Assembly (NCBI GenBank): GCA_944990035.1 | Contig: CALYLX010000143.1 | Span: forward strand, 868,001-932,000 | Source: Clitopilus passeckerianus | Taxonomy: Eukaryota; Basidiomycota; Agaricomycetes; Agaricales; Entolomataceae | Direction of reading: 5' to 3' | DNA length: 64,000 bases | Shown here: piece by piece, positions 24,574-43,108 of the stretch | Position numbering within the stretch: position 1 is the first letter of the stretch | How the letters are laid out: each line of letters opens with the position of its first letter | Program-made: the position numbers and the translations under genes | Notes under the pieces: model-generated | The model's input: the letters and a program-made list of their open reading frames with translations, nothing else | Database searches by the model: none | What the model was told of the DNA's origin: nothing

Positions 24574-24848
24574 TCAAATGTAATGCGTGGAGCCATCGGG
24601 ACAAGTGCAACTGAGAGAGATGAGGAAAGTAACGCGTCAGCCGTGAGTGATTTGTGTTCAGATGAAATAGACACCTACATCCTCGAGTGATTGTCATATG
24701 TGCCCTTGCAATCAAGTTCGCACTGGGCGGCGTATGACCACCAGGTCCTTTTAACGACGGTGTCGGAGCCTTCAACTGGATTGGGTCCCGGGGCGGCAGC
24801 GACGATGGAAACAAGGGTTGCAGCAAGGGTGATAGCGAACAACTTCAT
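24574..24848 (-). CDS. Secreted Kex2-type four-Cys peptide, copy 1 (short class)
   Basis: Exon 1 is 24679-24848 and exon 2 is 24574-24610; the 68-nt intron starts gtaggtgtc and ends ctcag. Product is 68 residues. The signal peptide starts MKLFAITLAATLVSIVAAAP, a short propeptide ends in the dibasic site VVKR, and the predicted mature peptide of about 36 residues contains CELDC then ICTCPDGSTHYI. Four cysteines have spacing CX3C-X10-CXC. The last two Cys lie in the 37-nt second exon; reading through the intron stops at once (ATG TAG). The TATA-like element is degenerate (tgtacaaaaag at 24937-24947). No known family recognised. The plan (signal, pro, KR, Cys core) fits an antimicrobial, signalling or effector-like peptide. 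Confidence 0.7.
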
Positions 24849-26145
24849 GATTGTCTGAGTATTTGAAAGGGCTGGTTTATGGTCGGGTGGAGGCGAGAGG
24901 TTGTTGTTGATAGTTCGGTCACTGGTATTACTAGGCTTTTTGTACATTGGGATGAAGTAGAAAGAGCGTACAGAAGTCAACTGAGATACCCGAGGACGGC
25001 GAGAGAATGCCATCCTCCACTGTCATGTCCGGATCTTCTGGCCGAAGGGGAGAACGAGGTCGAGTTTCATGCGAACTCGAAATCATCGATATGATACATT
25101 ATCGCCTACTCCGTGTAGAGTAAATCAGAGAGCCAAGATTGAGAGTTTCCTCTCAACGTCACTTACAGGAAACGCGCGGAGGTATAAAAACGACGGTGAT
25201 TAACTCCTCTAAGCAATTGAGTTTAAGCCGTGAAAATCATCGAAGTATGGCGAGATTATTGACTAGCATTGAGTCGATCAGATACTCACCGAGGTCATTA
25301 CCACGACGTTAATCCCTCTCGAGAATCAAGATCATTGATGAAAATGATCTTCCAGTACGGCCCCCCGTAAATCTGCTTCCACATGTGGTGGCAGCTTCGT
25401 CCAGTTATTTCCCGAGTAGACGGGATATCGTTGTCCACTAGCCAGAGCTAGCCAATATCGTTGCTTGTTAAGGCTACATCTCGAGAATAATTGACACACA
25501 AATACGACGGCCGTGCAAATCCTCAGACGACGCCACCGGACTTTTCCATCATGCCTAAAGGATCCCGACCTTGGCAGAGCCCCCATCTCTCTATCTCCCC
25601 ACAGGTGTCTTACGGCAGCTTGTTCGATACTTTTTGCACCCCCACGCGTCAAACAACGAGACTACAGGCTATCAGGCCAGAAAGGTCCAGTCATTCTTAT
25701 TAACGTTCGTGATCATAGCGACAATAGTATATACCAACAGCACTTCCTCTATCGTATAAGGGACAACCAACTCCAGATCTGAGTACGATCATGCGAGTCC
25801 ATAGCTTGACTGGCTGGATCTGACCGGGGCAGCGTTCCGCAGCATGAGCAGAGTTATATCCTATTATACTGGAAGTTCCTATTATCACAATGGTGGTTTA
25901 CTGAGTTCAGACACATGTACACATGAGGAAGTGGCACACAGGCTCCGTCCGGCACCCCGTCATCATCATCCTCATTATCAAATCCACTGGCGGAATTATA
26001 CTCAGGAAATTCTAGCTGCTCGTATTTCCTAGGCTTCGATACAGTTCCGCCGACCAACCAAAATTTACCCTACTCGTACCCTAACTCATACAGTCAAAGC
26101 GACATTAGGTACATGATCCTCCTCGATAACAAGCCCCCAATAATC
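24849..26145. other. Spacer of units 1/2
   Basis: Promoter of peptide copy 1, then repeated spacer blocks shared with the other units. ORFs here are short, open on both strands and shared with the repeats. No independent gene. Confidence 0.5.
25506..25549. repeat. 44-bp marker block, occurrence 1
   Basis: gacggccgtgcaaatcctca followed by gacgacgcca and ending cttttccat. It recurs almost unchanged at 27887-27930 and 32718-32761, and diverged at 39009-39047. Each occurrence follows a gaataattgaca stretch. It is an unambiguous marker of the duplication. Confidence 0.85.
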
Positions 26146-26199
26146 CATGTCCATCGCCATTTCAAGCATTTCTTGTCAATATCAATATCACGATGCGCC

Positions 26200-26532
26200 T
26201 CCTCTGGTCCCGATCGATTCTCATTTTCCGTGACCACAGCCGCGTCACGCGGCTGTGACTCTCCTCGATCAGAACCGCCATTCCAGTGGCGATGTGCTGA
26301 GTCCTACTGCCGCCTTTATCCTCGGATATCCCACCCGACGCATCCGACCCCCGACCCGCTCGAAACCTACGACATCCTTTACGCCAAACCCCACCTCAAC
26401 TCGCACTCGGAACCTTTCCTCATCCTCTCTCCTCAAACGGACGCAGACGACGAGTGGATGGAGGTCGAAGTGAAAGAGGTCGGGTTGTGGAAGGTGGGAT
26501 ATGGAGGGGTGGAATGTGAGTTGTGCCTATGA
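26200..26532 (+). pseudogene. 2H-phosphoesterase C-terminal fragment
   Basis: Only the 3' part of the unit 1 2H gene is recognisable: LYAKPHLNSHSEPFLILS followed by DDEWMEVEVKEVGLWKVG. This matches the C-terminal block DEWMEVEVEEVGLWKMG of the intact gene. The HxT-bearing exons are missing, so it cannot encode an active domain. Compared with unit 1, the block before DDEW is in a different relative frame. Confidence 0.7.
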
Positions 26533-26779
26533 TTGAGGAGGACGGAGGCGCGAGCCGTGTGAATGAGAGAAAATGGTCTCGAAAAGCGAAAACATAGCCC
26601 TTAAATGCTTCAACGCCTCTTACCTACTTCACGTTTACGTCAAGATTATCGTTCTACGAAGTTCCATGTAAACCTTTGACGCCGATGGCTAGGGTCTAAC
26701 ATCCTTTCTTGGTGCTTCCCCACATTCCATCGATAAAAAGTGACCACTGTGCTCCAATTCCATGTGCCCGACTTCGTCA

Positions 26780-26971
26780 TGGCGGTAGTAGTTGCCATTC
26801 TGTTCCGACGCTCTGATACGTAAGACTTCAGATGTTCGATTTAACTTCACCAGGGCAGACTCCAGCCGCCACACATTGTAGGTGTTGGAGATGGAAACAT
26901 TCGCAAGTGAATTGCTGGTCAACACCGCAGGTAATTACAAGAGACATTCGTGTAGAGATCTAGCTTGTTAA
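26780..26971 (+). pseudogene. Convergent short ORF relic, unit 2
   Basis: Reads ...VRFNFTRADSSRHTL, then TAG, then METFASELLVNTAG and NYKRHSCRDLAC, ending at TAA 26969-26971, 11 bp from the opposing peptide stop. The METFASELLV part aligns with KTFTNELVVNMAG in unit 3 and with LASE/LMSELV in units 4 and 5. It is a relic of an unrecognised coding block; a 23-codon ATG frame is the most that remains open. Confidence 0.3.
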
Positions 26972-26982
26972 CTATTCGGTTC

Positions 26983-27281
26983 TCAAATTTGGAACATGTA
27001 ACCATCGGCGCAAGTGCAGGTTTCGAGCGCAAAGAGAAAAGTACAGCGTCAACCAGGAGTGACATACTATCAGACGAAATAGACACCTACAACCTATTCG
27101 CAGAATTATATGTGCCCGCACCACGCTTAACCTGTGTGCAGTAGTAGTTGCAGAGGTACCCAGGCGGAATAACGACCCTTTTAGCGATGGGGCCGGATTC
27201 TCCTGCGATTGGGGTGAGTCCTGGAGCGGCAGAGACGATAGAAACAATGGTTGCAGCGAGGGTAATAGCAAGCGGCTTCAT
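26983..27281 (-). CDS. Secreted Kex2-type four-Cys peptide, copy 2 (long class; splice acceptor changed)
   Basis: Exon 1 is 27091-27281. A homologous exon 2 lies at 26983-27019, giving 75 residues if joined. Features: signal MKPLAITLAATIVSIVSAAP, dibasic site IAKR, CNYYC, then TQVKRGAGTY, and in exon 2 CTCADGYMFQI. The intron donor gtaggtgtc is intact, but the expected acceptor AG is AC (intron end cgaaac), and no AG lies close by. Without splicing the product stops right after exon 1 and loses the CXC pair. It is either a recent loss-of-function allele or a shortened product. TATA box at 27380-27387. Confidence 0.55.
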
Positions 27282-27379
27282 GATCGCTAGAGGAGTTGAG
27301 AAAAGAAGTTTGTGGCTAGTCGTAGACGAGATATTTGTTGATAGAGAGGTTGTTGATAGTTTGTTCACTACTATTGGGC

Positions 27380-27387
27380 TTTTTATA
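27380..27387 (-). promoter_or_regulatory. TATA box of peptide copy 2
   Basis: Minus strand cagtataaaaagccc, about 100 bp upstream of the ATG. The same element in near-identical context precedes copies 3, 4 and 5. Confidence 0.6.
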
Positions 27388-27886
27388 CTGTAGGATGGTG
27401 CGAAAGGGGCATACAGAAGCCAAATGGCACCTACTTGAGGCCGACGGAAGATTGTTATCCTCCTGCCTGCCCGGATTCTTTGGCAGAGGGTAGATTTAAG
27501 TTCGAGTTTCACGCGAATTCGGAACCCCAAAAATGAAGCTTTACAGGGCTATTCCATATGGATAGATCCAGAACTAAGAGATTCGCCATTTGGGAACACA
27601 CGGGAAGATGATGATAGATTCTATGTAAGTGATTAAGTCCAAAACCCATGAGAATTGCGGATTCGTTGAAGTATGTGAAGTTATTGGCCAGCTTCACGAG
27701 GATTATGGTAGTGATCTTCCTTGTACGACCCCCATGAATTCGCTTCCACGGGAGGCAGCAGCTTCATCCGTGACCCGTTACCCTGGCAGTAAACCTGAAT
27801 GGAATCTCATTTCGTCTTTCTTTCAACTAGCCAATGACACCGTGACTGGTTAACCTTGCATCTGAAGAATAATTGACATTCACGAC

Positions 27887-27930
27887 GACGGCCGTGCAAA
27901 TCCTCAGACGACGCCAACGGGCTTTTCCAT
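27887..27930. repeat. 44-bp marker block, occurrence 2
   Basis: Same block as at 25506, one of three near-identical occurrences. Confidence 0.85.
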
Positions 27931-28830
27931 TGCGACCACGGAACCCTTATCTTGGCAGAACCATTATATTTCTATCTCCTCACCGACGTCTTCGGGTAGC
28001 CTGTTGAATCACCTACCTCACTGCACGCGCTGACGAAAGACTACAGGCTACCAGCCTACCCAGTTGTTCTACTTGACGTTCGTGATCATGGAAACGTTGC
28101 TATATTGTACCGTACTGACAGGGCTTACTCTAACGTGTAAGGTCTATTTCCGACATAGCAGAAGTAGGGACAACCAATGCCAGATCTGAGTACGGGAATG
28201 CGAGCCAAGAGCCTTATAGTCCCCAGTTGGGTTAATTCCAAAGAGGTCATCCCCTATTAGATCACAGCGGTAGCCCGCTCACCTTTGACTCGTCCATTCA
28301 ATATGATTGCGAATTGTAGAGTCGTCGGACCCCCGAGCAATCCGATATTGATCTAGGATCAAGACCTACCATGGACCCATTCTGTGTGCGGCACAGTCTC
28401 AGGTGACTTTCGAGCTTTCCATTAGAAAAGCCATTCCCAAAAATTTGAAATACCAGGTGACGTACGAGTGGGTGGTAGTGCTTCTTGACGAATTGGACGC
28501 CAGACTATGGAATCGAAGAGATGGGGAAGATGTAACGGAAGAATCCGGGTGGATGAGGGAATATGGATTCCTCGAAGGAATGCGTAGAATAATAAAGAGA
28601 AAGAGACGAAACGAGATAAGGTCTGAAGAAGTATATCTTACTTCCACTATCCACTTTAGGACGCAGAGCCTTCTCCCCGACTTCAGCCGCCGCAGCTCGC
28701 CTGCCTTGGTTCGTATTACAAGGCTGCCACTTAAAATCGACATCAAGTGTACAACGTTGACGCTCGAAGCAGTTTTTGTCAATATCATGATGTCCCTCCG
28801 GGCGGATTTGGCCTTCAACGTCTCCTGAGT

Positions 28831-29767
28831 TATGCGCATCGTTCCGCAGGTCTGCGGGAGGCCTCGCAAGCTAAAATCGAGATAAAGTGGCAACATAATG
28901 CCTAGGAGAGAGGGGTCGTCTTGGTGCTGCGATCCTTGGGAAGGTGCACCACAATTCGGATGGGTACTGAGACTGTGGCCAATGTTTAGGGACGAAACGT
29001 GCCAGATGGAGAAGAGGAAACACACCGAAACTACGCCTTCCTTCTGCATGACTCATTAAATCTCCAACTGAGATTTTCCTAATGGTAAAATCCTCTCAAC
29101 ATCCTCCGAGGTTATGTGCGCCGTTCCGTTGGAGGAAGGCATCACACCTGGAGGGGCCTCGACGACAGGGAAGAACGGCAGAATATGTCACTGTACACGA
29201 GAAGTTAAGTGAAACTGCGGTTCCAAGATGAAAAACGTACCTCAGAGACCGGCGTACCCCCATACGATGTGTGATGCAACGCTCTAACATGGAGAGAAAG
29301 GAAGGACAAGCGACGGAAAGAGACAGAAGTTCAAGAATTGACAGTTGTGGCTGTGAATCAGTTCCCCGTTTGGCTAAATTCATCTTATCTTATCTCCCTC
29401 TCATTCGGATCAGCCGGGCGCCGCATCCACGATGAACATCCGCTGAATATCCAACGCCACGATCCGCGGGTCAAGTCAACCAACGAATACATTCTCCTCC
29501 GCCTGACCACCCGGTCAAGTACGCCTCCGGTCATTACGGTTGATCCTCTTCAAAGATACCCATGAATGTCAATCCACGCATTCACGGGAGTGCTCACATT
29601 CAATCAACCATCGATGACCATCAGGAAAACCATATGGTCGTCTAACACAGAGCCGCCATTTAAGCACGAAAGCAGGTTCTGGGTGGTCGACACACTCGAG
29701 CTTTCGTATTAACCCTGTCCTTAACAAGATAATCTCATCTTCATAGCGCACTTGGACTTGACTGACT
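28831..29767. other. No gene recognised
   Basis: A long minus ORF (28399-29049) overlaps this stretch but is open opposite a plus ORF and made of repeat-unit sequence, so it is not called. Nothing else is recognisable upstream of the carboxypeptidase relic. Confidence 0.5.
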
Positions 29768-31530
29768 ATGTTTCCCTCCTTTCTCACCCTATTGGTGTTC
29801 AGCACCACCCTCCTGACGTTGTACGCCGCCGACCCTCTCAATACCTCTACACCAACCTCCGCTACGTCGAGGGCTCTGGGATCTGCGAGACCACTCCTGG
29901 GGTGCATCAGTACTCCGGATACGTCGATATTGGGACGAATATGTCCATGGTTAGTCTCCCATTTCCCTCTTCCCTCAAAGTATTCGGAAGCTTCGATAGC
30001 TGATGGCGCGTATAGTGGTTCTGGTTTATTGAATCTCGCAAATACCCAGAGAGCGCGCCGCTTATGATCTGGTTAAATGGAGGTCAGGGTTGTTCAAGTA
30101 TGATTGGAATGTTCAGAGGTTCGTCGCCCCATCATGCCTCAAAGTCTTGCCCTGGTTGCTAAAGGGTCTATATTCGTCCAAATTGTACAGGACACGGCCC
30201 ATGCAGAGTAGACCCCCACAAAACCACAACTAAACTCAACCCGTACAGCTAGAACGAGTTTTCTAATAGTACGTTTGTATTCCTCTTCCGATTTCTCCTC
30301 TCTCCCCTCTCTTCTGCTCATCTCTTCGCCTCGCCTTAAATTCTAAATTCGATAACAGTGATATACATCGACCAACCCATTAGCGTGGGCTTCTCTTACG
30401 GCACCGTGACTAGTTCTCCCCGTACGCGAAGAACGAGTGCGTTTGTTTTCCTTTCCTTTCATTCCCTCCCTCATTCGCGTTTTCATCCCTCGTAAAGGAT
30501 TATACTCGGGACTGAGAGCTACAGCGGCCACTACGGGCCCTCTTTCATTGCCTACTTCAATTCGCAGAATGCCAAGATTCGAAGTGGGGAGTTGGAGGAA
30601 TTCCCGATTGTGGTGGAGACGCTGATGATCAACAGGCAAGTCTGCTTTTCTTCTTTCTTCTCTTCTCACCCACCCAATGTCGAAATTTACACGTTCCTCT
30701 CCCCCAGTGGCTGGTACGACCCCCTAATCCAAAATGGCGCATACATCCCCTTCACCACCTGCGCACCTCGCTATGGCCCCTTACAGAACGCCTCCATCCT
30801 CGCCACCATCACGAAGAACTACTACGCCCCCGGGGGGTGTTTAGGCTTGGAATGACAATGCTATAAAGTCGGGGACAAAAAGGACGAAGCATCGATTGGT
30901 GGTTTGCGCGAATGCTACGACGAATTGCATGAGTCCAGTCTCATCTCTCCTCCCTGTCGTAATACCTCGGACTTATACACATCTTTCTCCTCCTTCTTAG
31001 TTAAACATAGATATCGTGTCATTTACCTGACGTCAACTTCCCCCACCCCTGATTTCTGGGCGGGAAATGCTGATATTATGTACGTTTCTCTCTATTCCAC
31101 CTCCCCGCATCCCTCTCCTCATCTCGCTCTCCCCGTTCTTATCTAATTCTCACCCCAAATTCAGCTGTAACTGGATTGGAGCCCTCGAAGTTAGATCCTC
31201 CATGTCCTGGTACGGCCATCCCCGCTTCGCCTTGGCTCCATTCTACAACATGACCGTTGGGGAAAAATCTATCGCGTCGGTTAAGAATATGGACAAATTC
31301 TCGTTTGCGTACGTTCTCATTCTCGCTCCTTCCTGATCAACTAGCTGATATAAATGGACAGGAGGGTATATGATGCTGGAGATTTAGTGGTGAGTCCCAA
31401 AGGTGGTTTTATCCGAATGGGGAGATGCTGGATGTTGACGTGGAGAAATACTAATAGGCGGCGTTCCAACTTGAGTCTGCGTTTGAGATTGTCAAGCGGA
31501 TTGTTGCTGATTGTTGCTGGGGAGCCTTTA
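29768..31530 (+). pseudogene. Serine carboxypeptidase (S10) pseudogene
   Basis: Starts with a signal-like MFPSFLTLLVFSTTLLTLYA. It then carries S10 landmarks: [41 protein letters not shown] (canonical GGPGCSS), IDQPISVGFSYG, the nucleophile region TESYSGHYGPSF (about 30510-30545), GWYDPLIQNGAYIPF, CNWIGALEVR and VYDAGDLV. Lesions: a frame change between the signal and ICETTPG (about 29830-29880), TAG in NPYS*NEF at 30250-30252, TGA at 30853-30855, and the catalytic His of the usual YDAGH replaced by Asp (codon 31381-31383). Intron positions remain recognisable. Family role: secreted or vacuolar C-terminal exopeptidase. This copy should be inactive. Confidence 0.85.
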
Positions 31531-31602
31531 CATTCCGTCTGGTGCTCCCAAACTCATTTCTCGGATACATCCAGGGTGGGAGCACATGTCACTCGGTCTT
31601 GA

Positions 31603-31827
31603 ATGGTTCCCGTTTGTGATGATGTATATATCACTGTCAGAGATCTTATGTATCCGACGACTAGTAGAATCGAATTGATGAAGGATATCCCAGACGTCCG
31701 CCGTGACTTCACCCGCGCGGACCCTGGCGGACACGCATCGTATGTGCTGAAGATGAAAACATTCACAAATGAATTGGTGGTCAACATGGCAGGTAATTAC
31801 CACAAGACGATCGGTGTACAGATCTAG
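31603..31827 (+). pseudogene. Convergent short ORF relic, unit 3
   Basis: Longest open version of the block facing the peptide genes: DVRRDFTRADPGGH, then KTFTNELVVNMAGNYHK, ending TAG 31825-31827. The conserved ...SC..DLAC end is lost by a small indel. It begins at TTG/ATG-poor sequence, so no credible start is seen. Confidence 0.3.
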
Positions 31828-31846
31828 CGTGTTCACGACTGGGTTC

Positions 31847-32139
31847 TCAAATTTGGAACGAGTAACCATCGGCACAAGTGCAACTTTTGAGTTGGAGGGA
31901 AGCAAAGCGTCAACGAGGAGGAACATATGATCAGATGAATTAGACACCTACATTTTAGTCGCAGAGTTATATGTACCTGCACCGTGCTTACCCTGTGTAC
32001 AGGCGTAACCGCACAGATCCCCAGGGGTAATAACGACCCTTTTAGCGATGGGGCCGGATTCTTCGATTGGGTTGAGTCCTGGAGCGGCGGAGACAATGGA
32101 AACGATGGTTGCAGCGAGGGTGATAGCGAGTAACTTCAT
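31847..32139 (-). CDS. Secreted Kex2-type four-Cys peptide, copy 3 (long class)
   Basis: Exons 31952-32139 and 31847-31883 encode 74 residues; the 68-nt intron runs gtaggtgtc to aaaag. Signal MKLLAITLAATIVSIVSAAP, propeptide ending IAKR, predicted mature peptide of about 42 residues containing CGYAC, TQGKHGAGTY and KICTCADGYSFQI. Cysteine spacing is CX3C-X16-CXC. All splice sites and the dibasic site are intact, so this is one of the four apparently functional copies. TATA box at 32238-32245. No known family recognised. Confidence 0.72.
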
Positions 32140-32237
32140 TATGATTGGACGATTTGGGAGAACTAGTTTGTGGCTGGGTATGGACGAGAGATTTGTTGAT
32201 ATCGAGGTTGTTGATAGTTCGTTCACTGCTTTTGGGC

Positions 32238-32245
32238 TTTTTATA
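32238..32245 (-). promoter_or_regulatory. TATA box of peptide copy 3
   Basis: Minus strand agtataaaaagccca about 100 bp before the ATG, followed by the shared gaactatcaacaacct leader. Confidence 0.6.
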
Positions 32246-32717
32246 CTGTACGACGGTATCAAACGAGCATAAAGAAAGCCGAATGGCGGTTACCCGAGGC
32301 CGACGAAAGATTGCTATCCTCCCGCCTGCCCGGATTCTGGCAGTGTGTGAGTTTGAGTTTGAGTTTCACGCGAGTGCGGAACCCCGAAAATGAAGCTCTC
32401 CACGGCTATTCCATATATATAGAGCCAGAATTAAGAGATTCGCCTTGATATCGCACATTTGGAAACATACAGGAAGATAACGATAGATTCCATGTAAGTG
32501 ATTGAGTTCAAAACCCATGAGAATCGTTGAAGTATGTAAAGTTATTGCCTAGCTTCACGATGATTGATGGGGTTGATTTTCCTTGTACGACCCCGCCTAC
32601 CCGAGGGCCAGCAGCTCCCCCCAGAGTAGATGGAATATCATTTTGTATGCCCTCCAACTAGCCAGTAATACAGTGACTGGTTATCCTGGCATCTGAAGAA
32701 TAATTGACATTCACTAC

Positions 32718-32761
32718 GACGGCCGTGCAAATCCTCAGACGACGCCAAGGGGCTTTTCCAT
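32718..32761. repeat. 44-bp marker block, occurrence 3
   Basis: Same block as at 25506 and 27887, with two substitutions near its end. Confidence 0.85.
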
Positions 32762-33179
32762 TATAAGTACGGAACCCTTACCTTGGCAGAGCCAACATCG
32801 AGACAAAACGTCAGATCTGAGTACGGGAATGCGAGCCAAGAGTCTCATAGCCCAGTTGGGTTGATTTCTATAAGTCGTTGGAGGTCACATCTCCAATAAG
32901 GCCACAGCGGCAGCCCGACCGATGAAGAACTCTGAAGAAATATACCTTACCTCCACTTTAGGATGCACAGGTTTCTTCTTTAACTGACTTCAATCCATGG
33001 TCTTCGTACCATTGCAGCTCGCGTTCCATACTTCCTCCTACGAGGTTACCACTACAAATCGACATCAAAAGTACCACCTCGGCGCTTGTTTCTCTCAATA
33101 CCCTGATCGATGCTCCTCCCGAGCGGTCATGGCTGTCGGAGCTTCGGTACCGTTGGTTATTCTGCCCAAATCGAGCCAT

Positions 33180-34430
33180 CGTCTGTGACCACAATCGCCT
33201 CACGCATTTGTGACCCTATTTCGTGCGATCGAGCAAGTCTCCAAACTGTTATCCTCTTCCTCTCTACGATGGCGTAGATCATTGAAGCCTCGAGTTCAAG
33301 ATATCCTGCTGATGTCCTTCCAACCATCCGTGTCGTTTTTCTCGACTCGTGAATCCACCGAACCCCAGAAAACAGTCCCAGCCTAACAGGAGTACGGTTC
33401 TTATTGCCGCTATTAAAACAGAGCGGAACTCGGACCTCCAAGCATCTGGCACTGGTGATGAGCAAGAGCCAGCCGGGATGTGAGCAGAGGTGCTATGTTT
33501 CACACCGAAAGAAAATGGCGTGGAGGGTGTGAAGTTGAGGATGCTTGGTGGTGTGTTACCGTTCCTCTTCTGCGCTCAACTGCGGCAGTGCTGATCGTCC
33601 CTCTTTTCGTTTTGGTTAAATGTCAAGATGCCTGGATATTTGACTGATACGAGGCCTTTAAAGGTACGTTCCTCCTCTTGTCTCTTTGTAGGTGAGGATA
33701 CGATGTGTACTAATTGACTGACCTCGCCAGTTCCATCGTACGATCCCGAACACCTCCCACCGTAAACCATCTCGGGAGATGTAAGCTTGGGGTGACTTGA
33801 GGGTACCCTTTTTGTTACCGGAACCTTTCATGAGAATGCGATTGCTGACTTAGTTTCTCTGCTCGTTTCGTGTAGATCTCATAAATTCGACGTTAGGAAG
33901 GCTCGGTACCTAACTGATATGAGACCGTTTGATGTACGATGTACGTTCATGTTCCTCCTCCTGTTTCCCTTGACGTGAGTATACACGTGTACTAACGGGC
34001 GACCTCGCCAGCTCCATCGAACGCCTCTCACAGCAAACCATCTCAGGATCGAAAATTTACGTTCTGTTATTCGGATGTGCTGACGTTTGAGGAGGGGACG
34101 AAGAGTTTGTTTGCTGAATCTCCGGCTCTTCGCTCACGGGCTACGGGGTTGAGACCGATCGCGCCTGTATTGACAGCACCACTACTTCCAACTGCTGCCA
34201 CCCCAACAACCCGTCTACGATCCGCTCGAAGCGCACGGCATCCCCATCCCCATCCTCAAACCGCACCGAAACACCCACTCGGAGCCCCCCCTCACTCTCT
34301 CCTCAACATCATGGACGCGCACGACGAGTACAGGGAGAAGAGATGAAGGAGCCCGGATTGTGGAAGATGGGGTCGTGGGATAGGGAGGGGAGGCATGTGG
34401 GTTGTGGGAGCGTGAGGTTGGCGGCGTAGG
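33180..34430 (+). pseudogene. 2H-phosphoesterase pseudogene with internal exon duplication
   Basis: Remnants of the unit 1 gene: the PPK/PRTP region near 33340, the CTCHR-like exon start, and the C-terminal exon (FCYSDVLTFEEGTKSLFA, about 34060-34110; IMDAHDEY near 34310). The short exon plus the start of the HxT2 exon occurs twice, at about 33600-33780 and about 33880-34050. In the first copy the motif region reads FHRTIPNTSHRKPS-like; in the second the catalytic His-x-Thr is lost (SIERLSQQTI-like). Multiple frame breaks make it non-coding. Confidence 0.65.
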
Positions 34431-34599
34431 AGGGGGAAGGAGAGGAGGAGCTGGAGCTGGAGGAGGGAGGAAGGGAGAGGAGTTGTTGGATAAATCAAGA
34501 GGTATTGAGGCGAACACCGCATCCTTCTGCAGTAGGAGACCTTAGCCGTTTCTACAACTATACCCTGTGTATAATTAACTGAACCTTGAGCATGCGAAA

Positions 34600-34767
34600 T
34601 TCTTTGGCCTTTTACCGACACCGAGATATGCAAGATTTCAGACACCTGGCTTAATTTCACCAACGGTGAACTTGGCGATTGGGAGATTAAACCACTCGCA
34701 AGCGAAATTGATGTCCACCGTCACTGGTAATTACAACAGAGAATCGTGCGGAGACCTAGCGTGTTAA
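34600..34767 (+). pseudogene. Convergent short ORF relic, unit 4
   Basis: Reads SDTWLNFTNGELGDWEIK, LASE, then in another frame VTGNYNRESCGDLAC with TAA 34765-34767, 11 bp from the opposing peptide stop codon. One frame break separates the two parts. Confidence 0.3.
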
Positions 34768-34778
34768 CGACTCAGTTC

Positions 34779-35047
34779 TCAAATATAATGCGTGGAGCCA
34801 TCGGGACAAGTGCAACTGAGGGAGAAAGTAAAGCGTCAGCCATGAGTGATATGTGTTCAGATAAATTCGACACCTACATCCTCGAGTGATTGTCATATGA
34901 GCCGTTGCAATCTAAGATGCATTGGTAGTAGTACGGAATGACGGTTCTTCTCATGAGGGCGTCGGATTCTTCAATCGGATTGACTCCCGGAGCGGCAGCG
35001 ACGATGGAAATAAGGGTTGCAGCAAGGGTGATAGCGAGCAACTTCAT
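34779..35047 (-). CDS. Secreted Kex2-type four-Cys peptide, copy 4 (short class)
   Basis: Exons 34878-35047 and 34779-34815 encode 68 residues, with the same exon lengths as copy 1. Signal MKLLAITLAATLISIVAAAP, dibasic site MRR, predicted mature peptide of about 36 residues with CILDC, NGSYDNHSRI and CTCPDGSTHYI. Cysteine spacing CX3C-X10-CXC. The last 20 or so residues are nearly identical to copy 1, while the segment just after the dibasic site (TVIPYYY versus TWWSYAA) differs. Intron acceptor ctcag is intact. TATA box at 35130-35136. Confidence 0.72.
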
Positions 35048-36099
35048 GATTGTTGAGGATCTGAAGTTAGCTGGTGGTTGGGTGGAGATGAGTAATAGTT
35101 GATAGTTAGTTCACTACTTCTTCGAGGACTTTTATACTGTAGGAGGGAGTAGAAGGAGTGTGCAGAAGTCAACTGAGATACCGGGCACGGCGGAAGATTG
35201 CCTTCTTCCACTACTATGTCCGGATTTTCTGGGCGAAAGGGAGATCAACTCTGAATTTCCGCTGTGATTTCACACAGGAAACACACAGGATCACGAAAGA
35301 GACGATGGTAGACGCCATGTAGGGGATTCAGAGTCAGGCCCATAAGAATCATTGAGGTAAGGTAAAGTTATCGACAAGTATCGAAAAAATCGGATGCCCA
35401 CCGGGCACGGCGCCCTCCAACGTCCAAGGTCCATCTCAGGAAGAGTAACCATATGGACAATCAAGCGCCAAGAGTATGACCATCTGAGCTCAGAGTCTGA
35501 CTACCTAGATCTGGCTAGTGGGACGGCCGCGTTCCGCAGCCCAAGCCTGAGCGGAGTTCTACCCCATTACACTGGATGTTTCTACCCGTCCCAACGGGAC
35601 TTTATTGACTCTAAGTGTCGGGGCCGGAATTCCATAATGAAGTTGATTAATTACTGGATAACCGAGGAACGTTTGAACGATCCAGATCGTGCTCAATGCC
35701 ACGAACCCACCATTGTACGCGGTGTGATCCTCGACAACAAAGTCCCCAACAATACATGTACGGAGCCATTCGAAGTAGTTCCTACCATCGGAGCCCTTCA
35801 GAAACGCCGTGAAGTCATCCATTCTGACTGACCAAAAAACCCCCTCTGATCCGACTTGACTGGACAGCATCGTCGAGCATTTTCGCGTAAGGAGCACTAT
35901 TGATGGCGATATTGGCCACTTTAGAGGCAATTTTGGGACACTGACGACGAGGTCGTGGTTTGAATCACGCTGACATGAGTTTTTAATGTGACTGTCCCAT
36001 TAGACGAGGGATTTCTTTCCGAAGGCGACGATATAACCACGACAAGACTATTCCACGAGTACAGAACGTTTGACTGCCCCTGGTCCGGTGTCCTTAATC
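35048..36099. other. Spacer of unit 4
   Basis: Promoter of copy 4, then a 145-codon plus ORF (35394-35831). Its sequence aligns with non-coding spacer in other units, so it is treated as repeat, not a gene. Confidence 0.45.
35130..35136 (-). promoter_or_regulatory. TATA box of peptide copy 4
   Basis: Minus strand acagtataaaagtcc about 85 bp upstream of the ATG; same context as copies 2, 3 and 5. Confidence 0.55.
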
Positions 36100-36119
36100 G
36101 ATCAAAGTACCCGTCAGTG

Positions 36120-36810
36120 CTTTTGAAGAGCTCTTTCTGTCATTACCAGAATCACGATGGGCCTCCCTTGCAGCCTTTAAAGGTTCGGTACTGCGGGCGC
36201 TTCTATGGGCGCTTGTGCCCAATTAAGCCATCTCCATGTGACGAGGCGCGTCACGCGTCTGTTACTCTCCTCGGTCAGAACGGCCAGTCCGGTACAATCT
36301 GCCAAGTCTTCATTCTCATGCTCTCTTCGCGAATATTGTCCATACTATGGCATCGTAGCCGCATGGGACCTCTGTATATGGTACCCCGAGTCAATCCAGG
36401 AAACGATATCACGGCGCAGGCTCCTGCGTTTGAGCCTAAGAGCGAAACAAGAGCAGGCCTACCCACTATAAGTCCTCATTTCTCCCTCCAAACTTTGCCT
36501 ACTAACCCAAAATACGACAGACCTCGCAATACCGCCTGTACCCCTCTCCCTCTTTGTCTTCTACTCATTTCCTATACACGGGTACCAACGAAAGATCGCG
36601 TCGCCAGGGCACAAACCCACACCTGCGGCACAGCACATCCTTATTCCAAAACCCTCATCTAGCGAAGGTAAAATACGGACATGTTGGTTCCACTTGCGTT
36701 CGAGAACCTATATCGCCGTTAGTCTAGAATCCGAAAGCGCACGACAAGTGGATGGAGGTAAAAGTGAGAGAGGTGGGGGTATGGTTTCGGGAGTGTGAGT
36801 TTGGGCCTAC
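36120..36810 (+). pseudogene. 2H-phosphoesterase fragment, unit 5
   Basis: Similar to the 5' part of unit 1 (gagacgaggcgcgtcacgcg-like stretch at about 36241, the CRNTACTP/IAIP region near 36510). It also keeps a short trace of the C-terminal block (HDKWMEVKVREVGVW-like, about 36740-36780). Both HxT motifs are missing and frames are broken. Confidence 0.55.
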
Positions 36811-36879
36811 GGGGAAGAGATAGAGGAGGAGGCTGACAGAGGGAGGAGAGAGAGGAGCTGCATTGGGAGCGTTTCAGTT

Positions 36880-37950
36880 TCAATTTTAGATGATGCTAAT
36901 ACATATCGACATCAGATGGTACCCTCATCTTACCAGAAGCTCTGTCCAAATTTGTCATTTATCGAGGGCGACGGTACGAGCGTCGTGCACAAATGGGTAT
37001 TATACCGCTGTGGAAGGGTATCCTACCCTTCTCGCGGATTTCCGAAACCAGGTCGTTCCGACCTTCAAGATGGTGTCTCACTCGCTCTCCGTCAAGATTC
37101 CGGAGCTCGTTCATAGACAATCAAGAGATCCCTTCGGGGATCAGTCTACTATTTCCACTCGGAATCCACGCTGTGCATCAGGACCGTCAAGCTTCCGGTT
37201 CCCTCGTGTAAGCCACGCACCCACCCTGGGATGGATTGGAAAGGATTTCGAGGTCAAATTTCTGTTTATTGTTTCTTTATTACAGCACATTACATTTTAC
37301 TATTATTCTTCGTTTCAGGCTATTTCTGGTGCGGGTATGATCATGAAGATCAGTACCTTGGTGGACATAGGGTCGAGATCCACACCTAGGACGCGTAAAA
37401 GGCACTGTTGGGGTCACAGTGCGCCTACGCGAGTGGAATCTCCCCGAGTCATTGCCATCCGGGTGCAGATTGGATTGTGATTGCCTTATCCGGTTGTAGA
37501 CCTGCCTTTTCCGTAGTATTTCTCTTCGTCTCGTGATCATGTATTCTCGCGCGCGTCGGCGGCGTCGCGCGTCTTTGAATGAATCAGGTTCTTGACACCT
37601 CACCACCACGATCAGATTCACGGTCAACCAGTGACCGTTCATTCAGTATCGAGGATCACACGGATCCTCACCTTCTCGGCAAGTTACAGATTAGCTAGCT
37701 GAGTATTTCATTCAATCTTCATTTTCATTTCTACACTACATTCGTAGTTGTATCGAGAAGCCTACGGCTTCTCTTGTTACGCTACATTTCCGACTGATCC
37801 CTCTTCTCTCCCCACTCCTCTCTTACCCAGGTACCCGGACCGAGCCCAGTAGAGTCGGCACCCCGCGGCTAGGAGGCTCTTTCTTCCTCACCGCTCAAAG
37901 CTGATGTCTGTTTCATCGGCCAGACTTTCTTATTCCGGCAGCGACGCCCA
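36880..37950. other. Unit 5-specific insertion, possible LTR remnant
   Basis: Not shared with the other units. It includes plus ORFs of 66-196 codons with no recognised domain and a GC-rich stretch cgcgcgcgtcggcggcgtcg (about 37548). A U5-like sequence (tcattcaatcttcattttca, about 37710) is followed by a perfect hairpin gagaagcctacggcttctc (37758-37776). The hairpin and tract suggest a solo LTR or other element end, but no target-site duplication or element ORF could be shown. Confidence 0.3.
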
Positions 37951-37974
37951 CCGCTCCATATTCAGACTTTAGAC

Positions 37975-38111
37975 ATCTAGCTTAACTTCGCCAATGGGGA
38001 CTCTGGCAGCCATGAGTTGTATGAGTTAGAGCCGGGAACCCTCATGAGTGAATTAGTGGCTATCACGCAGGCGATTACAAGAGAGAACTATGTGGGGGTG
38101 TAGCGTGTTAA
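37975..38111 (+). pseudogene. Convergent short ORF relic, unit 5
   Basis: Reads LNFANGDSGSHELYELE, LMSELV, then in another frame AGDYKRELCGGVAC with TAA 38109-38111, 11 bp from the opposing peptide stop. Confidence 0.3.
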
Positions 38112-38122
38112 CGAATGGGTTC

Positions 38123-38414
38123 TCAAATTGTAAACTGGTAACCATCGGCGCAAGTGCAACTGTCAAGTTGGATGAAAAGCAAATGGTCAACCATGTGTGA
38201 TGTATGCTCAGATAAATTACACCTACATCCTCGTCTTATAGTCATATATACCTGTACCACGCTTAATCTGGGTGCAATCCCAGTTGCATAGTGCGTCAGG
38301 CGGAACAACGGTTCGTTTAACGGTGTTATCGAATTCTGCGATTGGGTTGAGTCCCGGAGCAGCAGAGACGATGGAAACAACGGCTGCAGCGAGGGTGATG
38401 GCGACCAATTTCAT
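38123..38414 (-). CDS. Secreted Kex2-type four-Cys peptide, copy 5 (long class)
   Basis: Exons 38227-38414 and 38123-38159 encode 74 residues. Signal MKLVAITLAAAVVSIVSAAP, dibasic site TVKR, predicted mature peptide of about 42 residues with CNWDC, TQIKRGTGIYDYKTRI and CTCADGYQFTI. Cysteine spacing CX3C-X16-CXC. Intron gtaggtgta to gacag is intact. An internal KR (in TQIKRG) is shared with copy 2 and could be a second processing site. TATA box at 38501-38508. Confidence 0.72.
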
Positions 38415-38500
38415 GGTTACTGAACCGGCGTATATGAAAGAACTGGATTATCGCTAGGTGGAAACGAGAGGTTGTTGATAGTTCGTACACCCTCCTAGGC

Positions 38501-38508
38501 TTTTTATA
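38501..38508 (-). promoter_or_regulatory. TATA box of peptide copy 5
   Basis: Minus strand ccagtataaaaagcct about 90 bp before the ATG; shared promoter context. Confidence 0.6.
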
Positions 38509-39620
38509 CTGGAGGATGCTGTAGACGGGGCATATGGAAGGCAGCATACCTACCCGAGGCTGACAAGAGATTGCTATCCTCCACCGCCTGTCCGGATTGT
38601 CTGGCCGAAAATGAGATCGAGTTTGAGCTTCACCCGTTACTCCCCATAGGAAACCCAACAGAGTATAAAGGGGCGGTAATAGATTTGTGAGTGTTTGCGT
38701 GCAAAGTCCATGATGGTCGTTGAGGTAAGGTGACCTTATTAACCAGTATTGAGTAGATCGAATGCCCACTGAGGTCATTAGACCGTCGGTAGTTCCGTTA
38801 GACTCACGACGCTTCATGATAGTGATCTTGCCTGTTCGACCCCCGTAAATTTACTTCCGCGGGCGGCGGTAACTTCATCCGTCACCAACCACCGTAATAC
38901 TTACTTCCCGGGTACTAATTAGATGCGATATCATCTTGTATCTCCTACAGCTAGCCAATGCAGCGACTTGATAACCTTGCATCTGGAGAATAATTGACAC
39001 TTGAATATGACGGCCGTGAAAATCCTCAGACGACGCCACCGGGGTTTTACAGAACCCTGACGTTGGCACAACCATCACACCTCTATCTCCTCAATGATGC
39101 CTTTGGGTAGCATATTCAATGACTTCCTTTGCCCGTTCGCGTTCACCAACCAGACTACATGCTCGAACGCCCTAGTCGTTATTATTGACGTTTGGGGCAT
39201 AACAAGGTTACTATATTATACCGACAGGACTTCCTCTGATGTACAAGGTCGCACCTCCGACACAGCAGAAGTACAAACAACCAACTCCAGATCTGTATAC
39301 GATAATGCCAGCCCAGAGTCTTGTAGCCACCGGTTGGGTTTATGTCGAGTACAAGCCATTACAGGTCTTATCCCCAATAAGGCCACAGCGGTAGCCCACT
39401 TGCCTTCAACTCCATCACTGAGACGATCGATGATTGCAGAGTCCACAACGTTTTGAACAATCCAATCATACTCAAAGGCCCAGACCTACCGTTAACTCGT
39501 GTTATACGTGGCGCAGTGCCAGGTGATTCCAAGCTTCAACAGCAAACGTAAATGATGATAACCGTCTAATCAAACGAGGTCATTGCCAAACAACTGTAGC
39601 GCTGTAGGTGACCGAGAACA
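38509..39620. other. Spacer of unit 5
   Basis: Repeated spacer blocks. The 120-codon plus ORF (39094-39456) aligns with interrupted sequence near 28000-28330, so it is treated as repeat sequence. Confidence 0.45.
39009..39047. repeat. 44-bp marker block, diverged occurrence
   Basis: gacggccgtgaaaatcctca then gacgacgccaccgggg; the cttttccat end is altered. Confidence 0.75.
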
Positions 39621-40340
39621 TCACGCAAATCGCAGACTCGAATGCGGCAGTCTCCCTGAAAGGGTCGTTTCTACCCATCGACCAGAGGGACCATCTGGTC
39701 TCCACGACATCCCATCCCACCATTTATGATAAACGGCCTCGTAACGCCCTGTATGAAATAAATCTATCCTGTTAACACCATACGAAACCGCACAGGGCCT
39801 CCCGTTCACAAGAGTTCCGCCGAGGTAGATAAACCCACTCCACCCATGACCATCCCAGAACTTATGGTATAACGTCTGGTCTCTCGCGACGAGAAAGACA
39901 TCGAGTCTATTCGGACCCCAAGAAACGACTGTGGGTATTTCGTACCATTCCCCACCAAGCCGTTCGTAACCCGTTTGATTCGGCAACCATATTTCCCCAT
40001 TCCACCATTTGTGATGGAGGGCAAAGTCATGCCCAATTATGAAGACGTCGACACGGTTGGGACCCCAGGAAATTGGGACTGGATCGAGAATAGCAACTCC
40101 TCCGAGAGACTCCCAAGGAATCCAGTGAGTTCCGTTCCAGAATTTGTGGTATACAGCGGAATCGCCGCCAACAACGAAGACGTGATGTCGGTTTTCGGGA
40201 ATAGAGGTCACTGGCTGGAGGGATTAAGACGCGTCTAGGGTTTTTTTTTGAGCAAGGTGGACATACTGGGTAGTTACTTGAGATGGTGCTCAGTCCTCAC
40301 AATTGACGAGCTGAGTATTTGAGCTTTGCGTCGGGGACAT
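39621..40340 (-). CDS. PLL-like beta-propeller lectin, four repeats
   Basis: Four tandem repeats of about 45-50 residues, each with D(V/L)F, an aromatic-H-K-(F/W)-W-(D/N)-G core and a following W (YHKFWNGTHW, HHKWWNGEIW, YHKFWDGHGW, YHKWWDGMSW). This is the W-motif repeat of the PLL/PHL-type (DUF346) and related fungal sugar-binding seven-bladed propellers. Members usually carry seven blades; this one has four. The 3' exon frame opens only at GTG 40211. An upstream exon 40301-40340 (MSPTQSSNTQLVN) joined by a 90-nt GT-AG intron to 40210 restores an ATG and gives 209 residues. There is no signal peptide, as in many cytoplasmic fungal defence lectins. Ligand unknown. Confidence 0.78.
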
Positions 40341-40658
40341 TCGCGTAATTTCTAGCGTAATACGACCACACCAGCGTCACCCTAAGAGCATGAGCAATTC
40401 AAACATTATGAAGAAAATCCTATCTGATGGTTTTCTACTGTGGATAAGGCGGAGGTATGAGTGTGTCGTGTCCGTCGTCCTCGAGGCGATCACATGGAGG
40501 GGTAAGCCAAAGTGTCAAGGTGAGCACGTGCAGCACTGGTGCGAAAAGATCCTAATCCTGACACTAAAGGGTGACGACAACTTTTACAAACATCGTCCAC
40601 CTCGAGCCTCCGATTGAACCTACCCGCAGACAGATCAGCGACGATCTATCAAGCTGGT

Positions 40659-41933
40659 ATGCAGAAAACGGGTCGCTTAGTACCCCCGGAGCTTCATGCG
40701 GGGATAATCTCTTCACTCGTCGAGGAAGGTCAAACACTACAGACCTGCTCGCTGGTTTCTAAATCATGGTATCATTTCGCCATGCAAACCTTTTGGTCAC
40801 GTCGCCCTCTTCTGCTACATATCCATGACAGAGACAGCATCATACGGACAGAGAGGCTTCGTGAACTCCTAGAAAATCCGCAGTGCAACTTCATTTCCTA
40901 CCTTCAGCTTTTGGTACTCAGCTGCCTGTCCATGTCCTCTGGGTCACAAAGCCATCGGGCCGCTGTAAACGCAACGTTCGGCGGCATCCTTAAACGTCTC
41001 TTAGGCTTCCCTTTGGATTTGACGGACATACGTATTGGCCGCCTCTATCTTAACGGACGTGGCAAAAGATTTGATCGGAAGGCGACATCACTTCTGGATC
41101 CGAGCTCGCTTGGGTTTCACGGGACCACATTCCCCAACCTCGACTCAATGGTTCAATTCCTCTCGCCGTTCAGTACCCTTCAACGGGTCAGCCTGCTGGG
41201 ATGCAAAGTGGGAAACGACCCCTGGCGGCCGGATTCTGGCCCCGGGAATCCGAACAGGGCACCGATGGGAGTTGAAAGCATTGACCTTCACGATCTACTA
41301 GACGTTGAGATCGACCTCAGCGCCGGTTCCAACATCCCCATATTGCAGATACTGAATAAAGCACCTGCTCTTCAGTCACTGCACCTCGCCAATCTAACTC
41401 CGTCGGCATTTAATGTAGCTGCACGGGTACTTACGCAGGTCGGCGCAAGCCTTACATCCTTGAGACTCCATATGAGATTTGAGTCTGGAAATTCAATCGG
41501 TCAGGAATTTTTTGAAAATAGCAGTTTCAATTCGTTGAATTCAAAACGTCTAGATTTTCCAGTCAATCTCGCTTCAAGTGAGAACCTTTCGTACCTGGGA
41601 GTCCGAGTCGACGCCCCCGCCGGTGATCCAGATTTGATATGCGACTGGCTTCTCCACCTTCTTCAATCCATCGAATCTGCTTCGATAGAAGTGTTGTGCC
41701 TCAAATTCTGTGATTGCATACATTTATTCAATGATGACCACTGGAGCAAATTAGAGAAAGGGCTTTTATCAAACCGACACTTTGATTCTTGGGGCCGCAT
41801 TGAGTTAGGCTTCAAGTTAGTCGGGAGGAGAGTGTCGAATTCCGGTCACGTCTGTCGACTTTGGAGGCAAGCAAGAAATTGTATGTGGTATCTGGGTATT
41901 GAGGAATATAGGGAGATCGAAGTAGCTCACTAA
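40659..41933 (+). CDS. F-box protein with LRR-like region
   Basis: 424 residues, single exon from ATG 40659 (an upstream TTG at 40614 is in frame but has no ATG). The N-terminal F-box reads VPPELHAGIISSLVEEG, then SLVSKSWYHFAMQTFW, with the Pro-Pro-Glu-Leu and Leu-Val-Cys/Ser-Lys-x-Trp features of Agaricomycete F-boxes. The remainder has irregular Leu-rich strands (LQRVSLLGC, LQSLHLANL, LTSLRLHM) typical of substrate-binding repeats. Likely role: substrate receptor of an SCF ubiquitin ligase; target unknown. It is divergent from the lectin gene. Such F-box genes are highly expanded in Agaricomycetes. Confidence 0.75.
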   Translation: MQKTGRLVPPELHAGIISSLVEEGQTLQTCSLVSKSWYHFAMQTFWSRRPLLLHIHDRDSIIRTERLRELLENPQCNFISYLQLLVLSCLSMSSGSQSHRAAVNATFGGILKRLLGFPLDLTDIRIGRLYLNGRGKRFDRKATSLLDPSSLGFHGTTFPNLDSMVQFLSPFSTLQRVSLLGCKVGNDPWRPDSGPGNPNRAPMGVESIDLHDLLDVEIDLSAGSNIPILQILNKAPALQSLHLANLTPSAFNVAARVLTQVGASLTSLRLHMRFESGNSIGQEFFENSSFNSLNSKRLDFPVNLASSENLSYLGVRVDAPAGDPDLICDWLLHLLQSIESASIEVLCLKFCDCIHLFNDDHWSKLEKGLLSNRHFDSWGRIELGFKLVGRRVSNSGHVCRLWRQARNCMWYLGIEEYREIEVAH

Positions 41934-43108
41934 TTAGCCATGCATTTCTTACCAGCTGGCATAGGGCAGGGGAAACATGACAAAGAGGTGTCCGATACTC
42001 TGAATGTTCCAACTCTTCTTACGAGCAACCGTCAAGCTGCGGGGCGAGGAAGGAAGCTCGCTGAAGTGACATTAGATAAATAGTACACAGATCCCCAAAC
42101 TCGATGAATCCGGACGAAAGCGGGCAGTTGGACCCCGGAGCAGGTGCCGCAGGGGTCAGCACAGGTACTTGCACCTGCTGGAGGGGGCATATGATCAGTG
42201 GATGGCGACAAATGGTCAATTCAGGCGGCCAGAGGAAACACGACGCCGGCTGTCCATCCACCTAACGACACGACTCAGGTCAATATACTGGATGGCTTAC
42301 GGATGCCGAAGGCAGAAGTCTAATTAGCGTCATGTGGGGAACAACTTCCACGGGTAGTGAGCTGTGCTTTAGGCGAAGCGCCAAGGTCCCTCATGGTCTG
42401 TCGGTAATTCACCGGTAGGCCTTGAGGAGCTTTGTGGCCGCGATGTGGGCGAAGGCTACTCAAAATCGTACGATTCTAGCGCCTCGGCTTGTGAAGGAAT
42501 GCAGGGGCCTTTTGGGTGCGGTGCCTATCTGAAATAGTATAGCTTCGTGGAGGGACAATCCGATAATATTGATCGTACAGAGTAACGGATGGTATACGGT
42601 AAGAGCAAGGAAGGATAAGAACGGTACACTGCGTCATAGAGGCGGGCCGCAAAGCTATACACCCTGTACAAAGATTTTTCCAGAGGGTCCGGAGCTTTGT
42701 AGATGACGAAAGCGGCCGCCTACTGCCCGAAAAACGAAGATCAGGCAACATGGCGGTACGAAGAAGCCACGTCGGCAGCGAGGATGACAGCGAGATCGCA
42801 GGATATGACGTCGAGCTTGTCCAAGGCGGTGTCGATAAGCACGATGAGCGGGGGTGGCTATTCGACAACGGCGCAATGAGCGGTGCAAAGGCGATGAAGA
42901 GGATTGATGAAATTGCCACGCACGGACCATTTTGTTGAAGTGCCACCAGGATTGAACCGGAGCTTAAAAATCGGAACCACACGAGGGCATCACAGTCAGC
43001 TCATTCCGTCCAGCACAAAACCCCAGCAGCTCGCTACACACCGCTGCCAATAACTCCCCCTCCTCATCGTCCTCCCCGTCCACTAACGATCTTTTATACG
43101 CTCTCGTC
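41934..43108. other. Intergenic, RHO1 promoter side
   Basis: About 1.2 kb without a recognised gene. Overlapping ORFs on both strands (for example minus 42476-42982) have no signatures. Part is presumably the RHO1 promoter and 5' UTR. Confidence 0.5.

Follow-up and report, generated by a model that had tools for sequence, protein, structure and literature searches.

We analysed a stretch of 64,000 nucleotides (nt) from the basidiomycete Clitopilus passeckerianus, here called the window, which covers positions 868001-932000 of contig CALYLX010000143.1 (C140 below) in the 64.8 Mb assembly GCA_944990035.1. Its minus strand carries five small loci that each have a signal-peptide-like start (judged by eye rather than with SignalP), a short pro-region, a KR or RR site, a CX3C motif and a 37-nt stretch coding for a CXC end, in agreement with an earlier note on this DNA. 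Complete gene models could be built for four of the five (copies 1, 3, 4 and 5). Taken together with their relatives elsewhere in the genome, the sequences make it reasonably probable that these are four intact copies and one broken copy of a large, tandem-expanded family of secreted, Kex2-processed, two-disulfide peptides, defensin-like in the manner of a cysteine-stabilised helix (CSH) and probably directed at outside targets. The features are listed below in window coordinates; C60 is the contig of the probable second haplotype.

24574-24848, minus strand: copy 1, whole; intact model, with an intact allele at C60:418840
24679..24848, minus strand: copy 1, exon 1 (signal, pro-region, KR, CX3C)
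24611..24678, minus strand: copy 1, phase-2 intron of 68 nt, GTAGGT..CAG
24574..24610, minus strand: copy 1, exon 2 of 37 nt, with the end CTCPDGSTHYI
26983-27281, minus strand: copy 2, whole; splice-broken, its allele C60:426065 having an intact model
27091..27281, minus strand: copy 2, exon 1, frame open up to the GTAGGT donor
26983..27019, minus strand: copy 2, exon-2-like stretch without an AG acceptor ahead of it
27382..27387, minus strand: TATAAA upstream of copy 2
31847-32139, minus strand: copy 3, whole; intact model, allele C60:430498
31952..32139, minus strand: copy 3, exon 1
31884..31951, minus strand: copy 3, phase-2 intron of 68 nt
31847..31883, minus strand: copy 3, exon 2 of 37 nt
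32240..32245, minus strand: TATAAA upstream of copy 3
34779-35047, minus strand: copy 4, whole; intact model, the other haplotype's copy C60:433595 being broken
34878..35047, minus strand: copy 4, exon 1
34816..34877, minus strand: copy 4, phase-2 intron of 62 nt
34779..34815, minus strand: copy 4, exon 2 of 37 nt
35131..35136, minus strand: TATAAA upstream of copy 4
38123-38414, minus strand: copy 5, whole; intact model, absent from the other haplotype
38227..38414, minus strand: copy 5, exon 1
38160..38226, minus strand: copy 5, phase-2 intron of 67 nt
38123..38159, minus strand: copy 5, exon 2 of 37 nt
38503..38508, minus strand: TATAAA upstream of copy 5
35245..38902, no strand assigned: segment with copy 5, absent from C60 according to the flanking matches

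In the intact copies, exon 1 is joined to a last exon of 37 nt, which supplies CTC-x-DG and the stop codon, across a phase-2 GT-AG intron that starts with GTAGGT and ends in CAG or AAG. The introns of copies 1, 3, 4 and 5 measure 68, 68, 62 and 67 nt; the earlier note had the phase right for these four copies but gave a range of 67-71 nt, of which 71 is the length of the gap in copy 2. The predicted mature peptides of the four share the CX3C..CXC pattern and, counted from the dibasic site, have 34 residues in copies 1 and 4 and 40 in copies 3 and 5, rather than 36 or about 42 as first proposed. Copy 2 has kept exon 1 and the donor but has lost the acceptor AG, its 71-nt gap ending in CGAAAC. 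No GT-AG model yielding a CXC end was found for this copy, and when it is left unspliced its reading frame terminates just within the intron. Because no AG acceptor precedes the exon-2-like stretch, copy 2 is probably not spliced to CXC, and the suggestion that the copies keep coding does not extend to it. Upstream of copy 1, at about 24930-24945, TACAAAAAG stands in place of the TATAAAA of most copies, and the C60 allele carries TATAAGAAG at the same place; because of these replacements, the promoter of copy 1 may be weak in both haplotypes.

What had been taken for a five-member array is the tail of a larger one, as the family has at least 86 loci in the genome, 30 of them on C140. Searches with exon 1 returned 82, 69, 48 and 79 places at E <= 1, in overlapping sets, and the modelled loci (54 + 31 + C136:518600) comprise 77 intact models and nine that are broken or odd, namely copy 2 of the window, C140:837898, C140:812273, C60:365133, C139:266678, C60:433595, C60:355922, C34:770053 and C93:105834. 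A weak further place, C106:11108 (E 0.11), lies outside the 86. All 77 intact models have a phase-2 intron (47-77 nt, median 61). The program that picked the models gave phase 2 a bonus and accepted only introns followed by C.C, so that the CXC in all models is there by construction. When it was rerun without the phase bonus and without the C.C demand, the chosen donor was among the top-scoring models in 76/76 cases, phase 2 standing alone at the top in 69 and sharing that place with another phase in seven; because the chosen donors keep their place, the phase-2 intron is not an effect of the scoring. The codon that it splits lies one to three codons ahead of the first CXC cysteine in the 76 models measured.

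The loci also share a promoter element. TATAAA is present in the 130 nt preceding 73 of 85 loci, compared with 2.7% of random 130-nt stretches, and in 63 of these 73 it stands 78-100 nt before the ATG. The gene pair C140:807481 and C60:353146 has no TATAAA at the usual upstream place, and in C60:355922, a third copy near C60:353146, the start of the signal peptide has been replaced. Another unusual relative is C93:105834 (plus strand; region C93:105534-106534), which has a TATA box, a signal-like start and the pro-region unit HVAGHVQEADTV-x-KR four times. Its CX3C part is gone before the stop, and an exon-2-like CNCVDG remnant lies downstream. From its sequence, this locus seems to encode a repeat precursor, processed by Kex2, that arose from the propeptide.

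Among the 77 intact models, the mature part is preceded by KR in 66, RR in four, QR in five and ER in two, so that the site is dibasic in 70. Together with the signal-like start, this gives the products the predicted layout of Kex2-type precursors, and a proprotein-convertase P domain was detected at two places in the genome. The 67 distinct mature peptides contain four cysteines in 57 cases, five in three and six in seven. The first pair is spaced CX3C in 59 of them and is followed by CXC, the latter being built into the models, which together form the CSH core. A Gly-x-[YFWLHC] motif is found in 63 of 76, and seven of 76 have a cysteine at about the GXC (gamma core) place. These seven rows form one clade with support of 94/83, just below the level that the tool marks with a star, and all of them also have a cysteine near the C-terminus; beyond the clade, C-terminal cysteines occur solely in C113:173578, which has two but no GxC. 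Because all members with the GxC-place cysteine fall into a single clade, we regard the two extra cysteines as one event, which only suggests that the two pair with each other.

To compare the parts of the precursor we used the ratio of nonsynonymous to synonymous divergence (dN/dS), computed crudely by NG86 with the Jukes-Cantor correction and given with ranges from a bootstrap over pairs. In 21 haplotype pairs, hand-picked from 27 reciprocal best pairs, the pooled ratio was 0.17 (0.10-0.30) for the mature part and 0.48 (0.30-0.72) for the leader (signal plus pro-region), and pooling the 26 non-identical reciprocal pairs gave 0.26 and 0.41. For 35 close paralog pairs it was 0.67 (0.57-0.76) for the mature part and 0.47 (0.40-0.55) for the leader; these pairs, chosen for low dS in leader and mature part alike, are not independent of one another, and two of them, nearly identical and between C96 and C140, are possibly haplotype copies. 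The mature part is conserved between haplotypes, yet it diverges faster than the leader between close paralogs. Over all binned paralog pairs (935/945, in four bins of leader dS), median mature dN was 0.58-0.73 and mature dS 1.19-1.48, with many values saturated, while leader dN was 0.20-0.29 and leader dS 0.25-1.21. Part of the contrast may be owed to gene conversion or to constraint on the leader, because dS, too, is greater for the mature part than for the leader.

Nucleotide identity was compared along the genes as well. Among the 27 intact C140 genes (351 pairs), median identity was 0.77 in signal plus pro-region, 0.64 in the mature part of exon 1, 0.73 in the intron, 0.70 in exon 2, 0.70 in the 120 nt upstream and 0.65 downstream, the chance level from reversed sequences being 0.60 for mature part and intron. 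The adjoining intron, at 0.73 against 0.64, has thus stayed more similar between copies than the mature segment. The dN/dS and identity comparisons bear out the proposal of a dibasic-site family under selection, with a conserved leader and a variable mature part, and a dN/dS near 1 in all copies, the outcome that had been named as contrary to it, was not seen, as the 0.17 of the mature part in the haplotype pairs illustrates.

The haplotype comparison builds on a gene further along the window. A TOR-kinase exon (52663-53451) recurs once in the genome, at C60:447559 with 89% identity, and the 16 C140/C60 gene pairs among the 21 haplotype pairs of the family stand in the same order on both contigs. 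Because of this single TOR counterpart and the collinear pairs, we take C60 and C140 to represent two haplotypes, which probably correspond to the two nuclei of a dikaryon. Both contigs have intact versions of copies 1 and 3; copy 2 is broken on C140 and intact on C60, and copy 4 is intact on C140 and broken on C60. Window 33403-35244 aligns with C60:431999-433787, and window 38903-41970 with C60:433787-436794, which leaves the segment with copy 5 without a counterpart. No partner in the window was placed for C60:421884. With copies that are broken, intact or absent on one contig or the other, the two arrays differ in content.

Evidence on the fold comes from profile searches with three alignments: A1 (42 full-length precursors), A3 (47 of the 67 mature peptides) and A4 (19 mature peptides, one row of which, from C113, is short at its end). 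Searched against PDB sequences, A3 gave nine matches at E <= 10, eight of them defensin-like with a best E of 3.5e-4, and the ninth being Micronemal protein 6 (E 2.6). When the columns of A3 were shuffled 100 times, in segments and with the cysteines kept, the stretch of the best match scored 3.0 bits on average and 11.2 at most, compared with 22.1 for the real profile, and a second stretch of the same type scored 3.4 on average and 12.2 at most, compared with 22.8. Eight of the ten A1 matches at E <= 10 were defensin-like, as were five of the six A4 matches (defensins or defensin-like), the sixth being an EGF-family chain (E 0.99). The A4 alignment places GHGxGTY of the family opposite GYRGGYC of the defensin, and because GTY aligns with GYC, the fourth defensin cysteine would here be a tyrosine or another residue. 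Among Pfam models of defensin type, searched in 47 members, Gamma-thionin (plant defensin, PF00304) matched three and Toxin_3 two; on one GTC member Gamma-thionin reached E 0.00089 and 19.9 bits, with a cut-off of 25.1. Matches to NCBIfam models pointed to five unrelated families, each in one member only (best E 0.022), and were set aside.

The similarity to the cysteine-stabilised alpha-beta (CSalphabeta) profile is therefore present with A3 and weaker with A1 and A4, and the peptides are likely to be folded like defensins, with two disulfides in most of them instead of three. CSalphabeta-like pairing, as the earlier note had suggested it, gains from the A3 profile, from the shuffles and from the position of the intron when set beside the genes described in PMC4165938, and it loses some ground with A4. 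That note recognised no named family, which agrees with Pfam in that no match with a printed score exceeds its cut-off; the superfamily can nevertheless be named. The profile matches, the phase-2 loop intron and the four-cysteine core lead us to class the family as a two-disulfide (CSH-type) variant of the fungal defensin-like peptides, and not with the canonical six-cysteine defensins, whose pattern it does not show.

A number of observations weigh against this assignment. The canonical six-cysteine CSalphabeta framework is missing: 57 of the 67 distinct peptides have four cysteines, and none of the 77 mature peptides has a cysteine before CX3C or CX4C, so that canonical Cys1 is absent. The CX4C spacing of eight of the 67 strains the helix pairing, and the extra cysteine pair amounts to one evolutionary event only. 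Net charge, with His not counted, is negative in 62 of the 67, zero in three and positive in two, unlike the cationic character of typical antibacterial defensins. The best PDB match of A1 was 9ub0 ("EC88 protein", E 0.58), ahead of the best defensin-like chain at E 1.2, and the 9ub0 stretch was not separated by the shuffles (12.9 compared with a maximum of 13.3). The eight defensin-like matches of A3 seem to represent variants of a single protein (two carry the name brazzein), and the first match of A4, "defensin, mutant DEF-BBB", is weak at E 0.18. Plectasin, micasin and eurocin were not among the PDB matches at E <= 10 for any of the three profiles. No Pfam match had a printed score above its cut-off, and EGF-type models matched more members than defensin-type models did. 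A genome search with PF00304 found nothing, a weak negative, since the exon-by-exon search also misses the present family. As candidates for a canonical defensin, PF01097 gave three places below its cut-off (C133, C43 and C47), where neither a signal peptide nor a gene-like frame was seen; the three share a similar Defensin_2-like stretch, ACxNHCSLLGYCGA. The contrast in dN/dS between paralogs rests on the 35 low-dS pairs, because mature dS is high or saturated over the 935.

The most direct competitor for the fold treats the mature peptides as fragments of an EGF-like domain, with C.C.DG(Y) as the terminus of an EGF module and the remainder as a reduced EGF fold. The Pfam matches point in this direction, with FXa_inhibition in eight of the 47 members, JAG1-like_EGF2 in five (best E 0.0016), EGF_FBN_1st in five, EGF_Teneurin in three and cEGF in one (E 0.0028), as do the "EGF family domain-containing protein" found with A4, Micronemal protein 6 found with A3, and the six-cysteine members, whose CX9C end is near EGF spacing. 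The printed Pfam matches are, however, below their cut-offs, and some span only 7-17 residues around C.C..G. EGF disulfides join Cys1-3, 2-4 and 5-6. With the third and sixth cysteine gone in the four-cysteine members, two partners would be left unpaired, and six cysteines are not what most of the family has (four in 57/67). As the PDB profile search and the shuffles also favour defensin-like chains, we consider an EGF origin improbable. That the family is a decaying or neutral set of duplicates without function is very improbable: nine of the 86 loci are broken or odd and acceptors are gone in copy 2 and in C60:433595, but 77 are intact, TATAAA is kept in 73 of 85, and the low mature dN/dS between haplotypes disfavours it.

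Other alternatives concern the role rather than the scaffold. The peptides could be secreted effectors or signals acting on a plant or other partner and be defensin-like in scaffold only, as has been considered for the anionic peptides of Zymoseptoria, where the text of PMC5234102 counts 195 Zytrisin and lambda-Zytrisin genes over the genus, more than 70% of them neutral or negative, and describes one assayed peptide as inactive on the microbes tried. The negative charge of 62/67 peptides and the large arrays would suit such a role, but nothing links the genes of the family to host contact, and we regard it as a somewhat unlikely, though serious, alternative. It is still harder to see them as fungal signalling or nonself peptides that act between hyphae or nuclei and are Kex2-processed like pheromones. 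This would account for the KR-processed precursors, the presence and absence of copies between haplotypes and the sister gene with its four-fold repeated KR unit; pheromones, though, are not known for two or three disulfides or for a defensin-like profile, and the listed products have no C-terminal CaaX. We think this possibility slight.

For the defensin-like family we favour a role in defending the fungus against microbes or grazers, or in antagonising them, which appears likely from the sequences, and rank a host-directed effector or signal next. The growth of the family, its differences between haplotypes and the concentration of divergence in the mature part would fit outside targets that change. 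After secretion, the precursor would be cleaved at its dibasic site by a Kex2-type protease, and the CX3C cysteines of the helix would pair with the CXC cysteines of the last strand. Because the mature peptides are acidic, lysis of membranes is disfavoured, and binding to a specific partner would be the more plausible mode of action. The repertoire would have grown by tandem duplication, after which the mature segments diverged, and the haplotypes hold partly different sets of it. If this is correct, the fungus has a large set of defensin-like peptides reduced to a minimum of two disulfides. Their natural variation would allow one to ask how the Cys1-Cys4 bond is replaced or lost, and they would offer dozens of different acidic peptides whose targets could be tested. 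Short genes with a tiny last exon may escape standard gene finding, and such families could exceed what annotations record.

Two further genes were noted in the window. An open reading frame on the minus strand (39621-40211) adjoins the peptide array and contains DUF346 repeats (E 5.6e-10), which we take to be of the beta-propeller lectin type of PVL/PLL. The exons of the TOR kinase lie on the plus strand at 52663-55660, with the mTOR domain and HEAT repeats at 52663-53448 and FAT at 54890-55660; the first of them, with its one other copy in the genome, served as the haplotype anchor.

Two protein-database searches, with 2 and 1 candidates, returned no match at E <= 1 and are uninformative on homologues, and four sequence words of the family had no occurrence in the literature searched, which leaves most subscription journals and all preprints outside. 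Known systems can be compared by description. The closest in layout are the fungal defensin-like peptides (fDLPs) of micasin type and the abisins of Agaricus bisporus, which, according to PMC4165938, share with the present family a signal peptide, a mature peptide of about 40 residues, CSalphabeta cysteines and tandem copies, and of which fDEF1 and fDEF2 also share a propeptide. Genes of micasin type and fDEF8 carry an intron of phase 0 in the helix and one of phase 2 in the c-loop (PMC4165938), the latter corresponding to the phase-2 intron in the loop before CXC here; abisin genes contain a single intron, placed in helix or c-loop, and abisins carry an acidic charge (-2.8 to -3.8). Unlike these fDLPs, as far as that text describes them, the family has no Cys1 and mostly no Cys4, hence no Cys1-Cys4 bond, its models lack the phase-0 helix intron, and it has far more loci than the three abisins.

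The Zytrisins are another large fungal family that is mostly neutral or negative, with altered CX3C spacing in some members and pseudogenes in some isolates (PMC5234102). In the sections of that paper seen, they differ in keeping six cysteines and in having a second, phase-0 intron after the signal peptide, and no dibasic pro-region is described; the phase-2 intron of the Z. tritici genes lies in the Cys4 codon. AdDLP of Anaeromyxobacter has only the four CSH cysteines, a layout it shares with the family, and a defensin-like structure is reported for it (PMC5116183). It is bacterial and lacks a GXC/CXG motif, whereas 63/76 members here have Gly followed at the second place by an aromatic residue, Leu, His or Cys (PMC5116183 for AdDLP).

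Brazzein and the plant defensins match the family profile over the helix, the KH/GH loop and CXC (E 3.5e-4), but they are of plant origin and the similarity stays below the Pfam cut-off. They have four disulfides. In the nodule-specific cysteine-rich (NCR) peptides of legumes, a conserved leader is likewise combined with a variable mature part, and their cysteine spacing is other than that of the family here. They also differ in being peptides of plants (legume NCR peptides, PMC7230169). Tentatively, then, one may picture a defensin fold stripped to two disulfides and expanded to dozens of acidic genes per nucleus, with the divergence concentrated in a mature segment that is flanked by leader and intron, both conserved, and with two nuclei of one dikaryon that hold different sets, as a possible fungal counterpart of the legume NCR arsenal.

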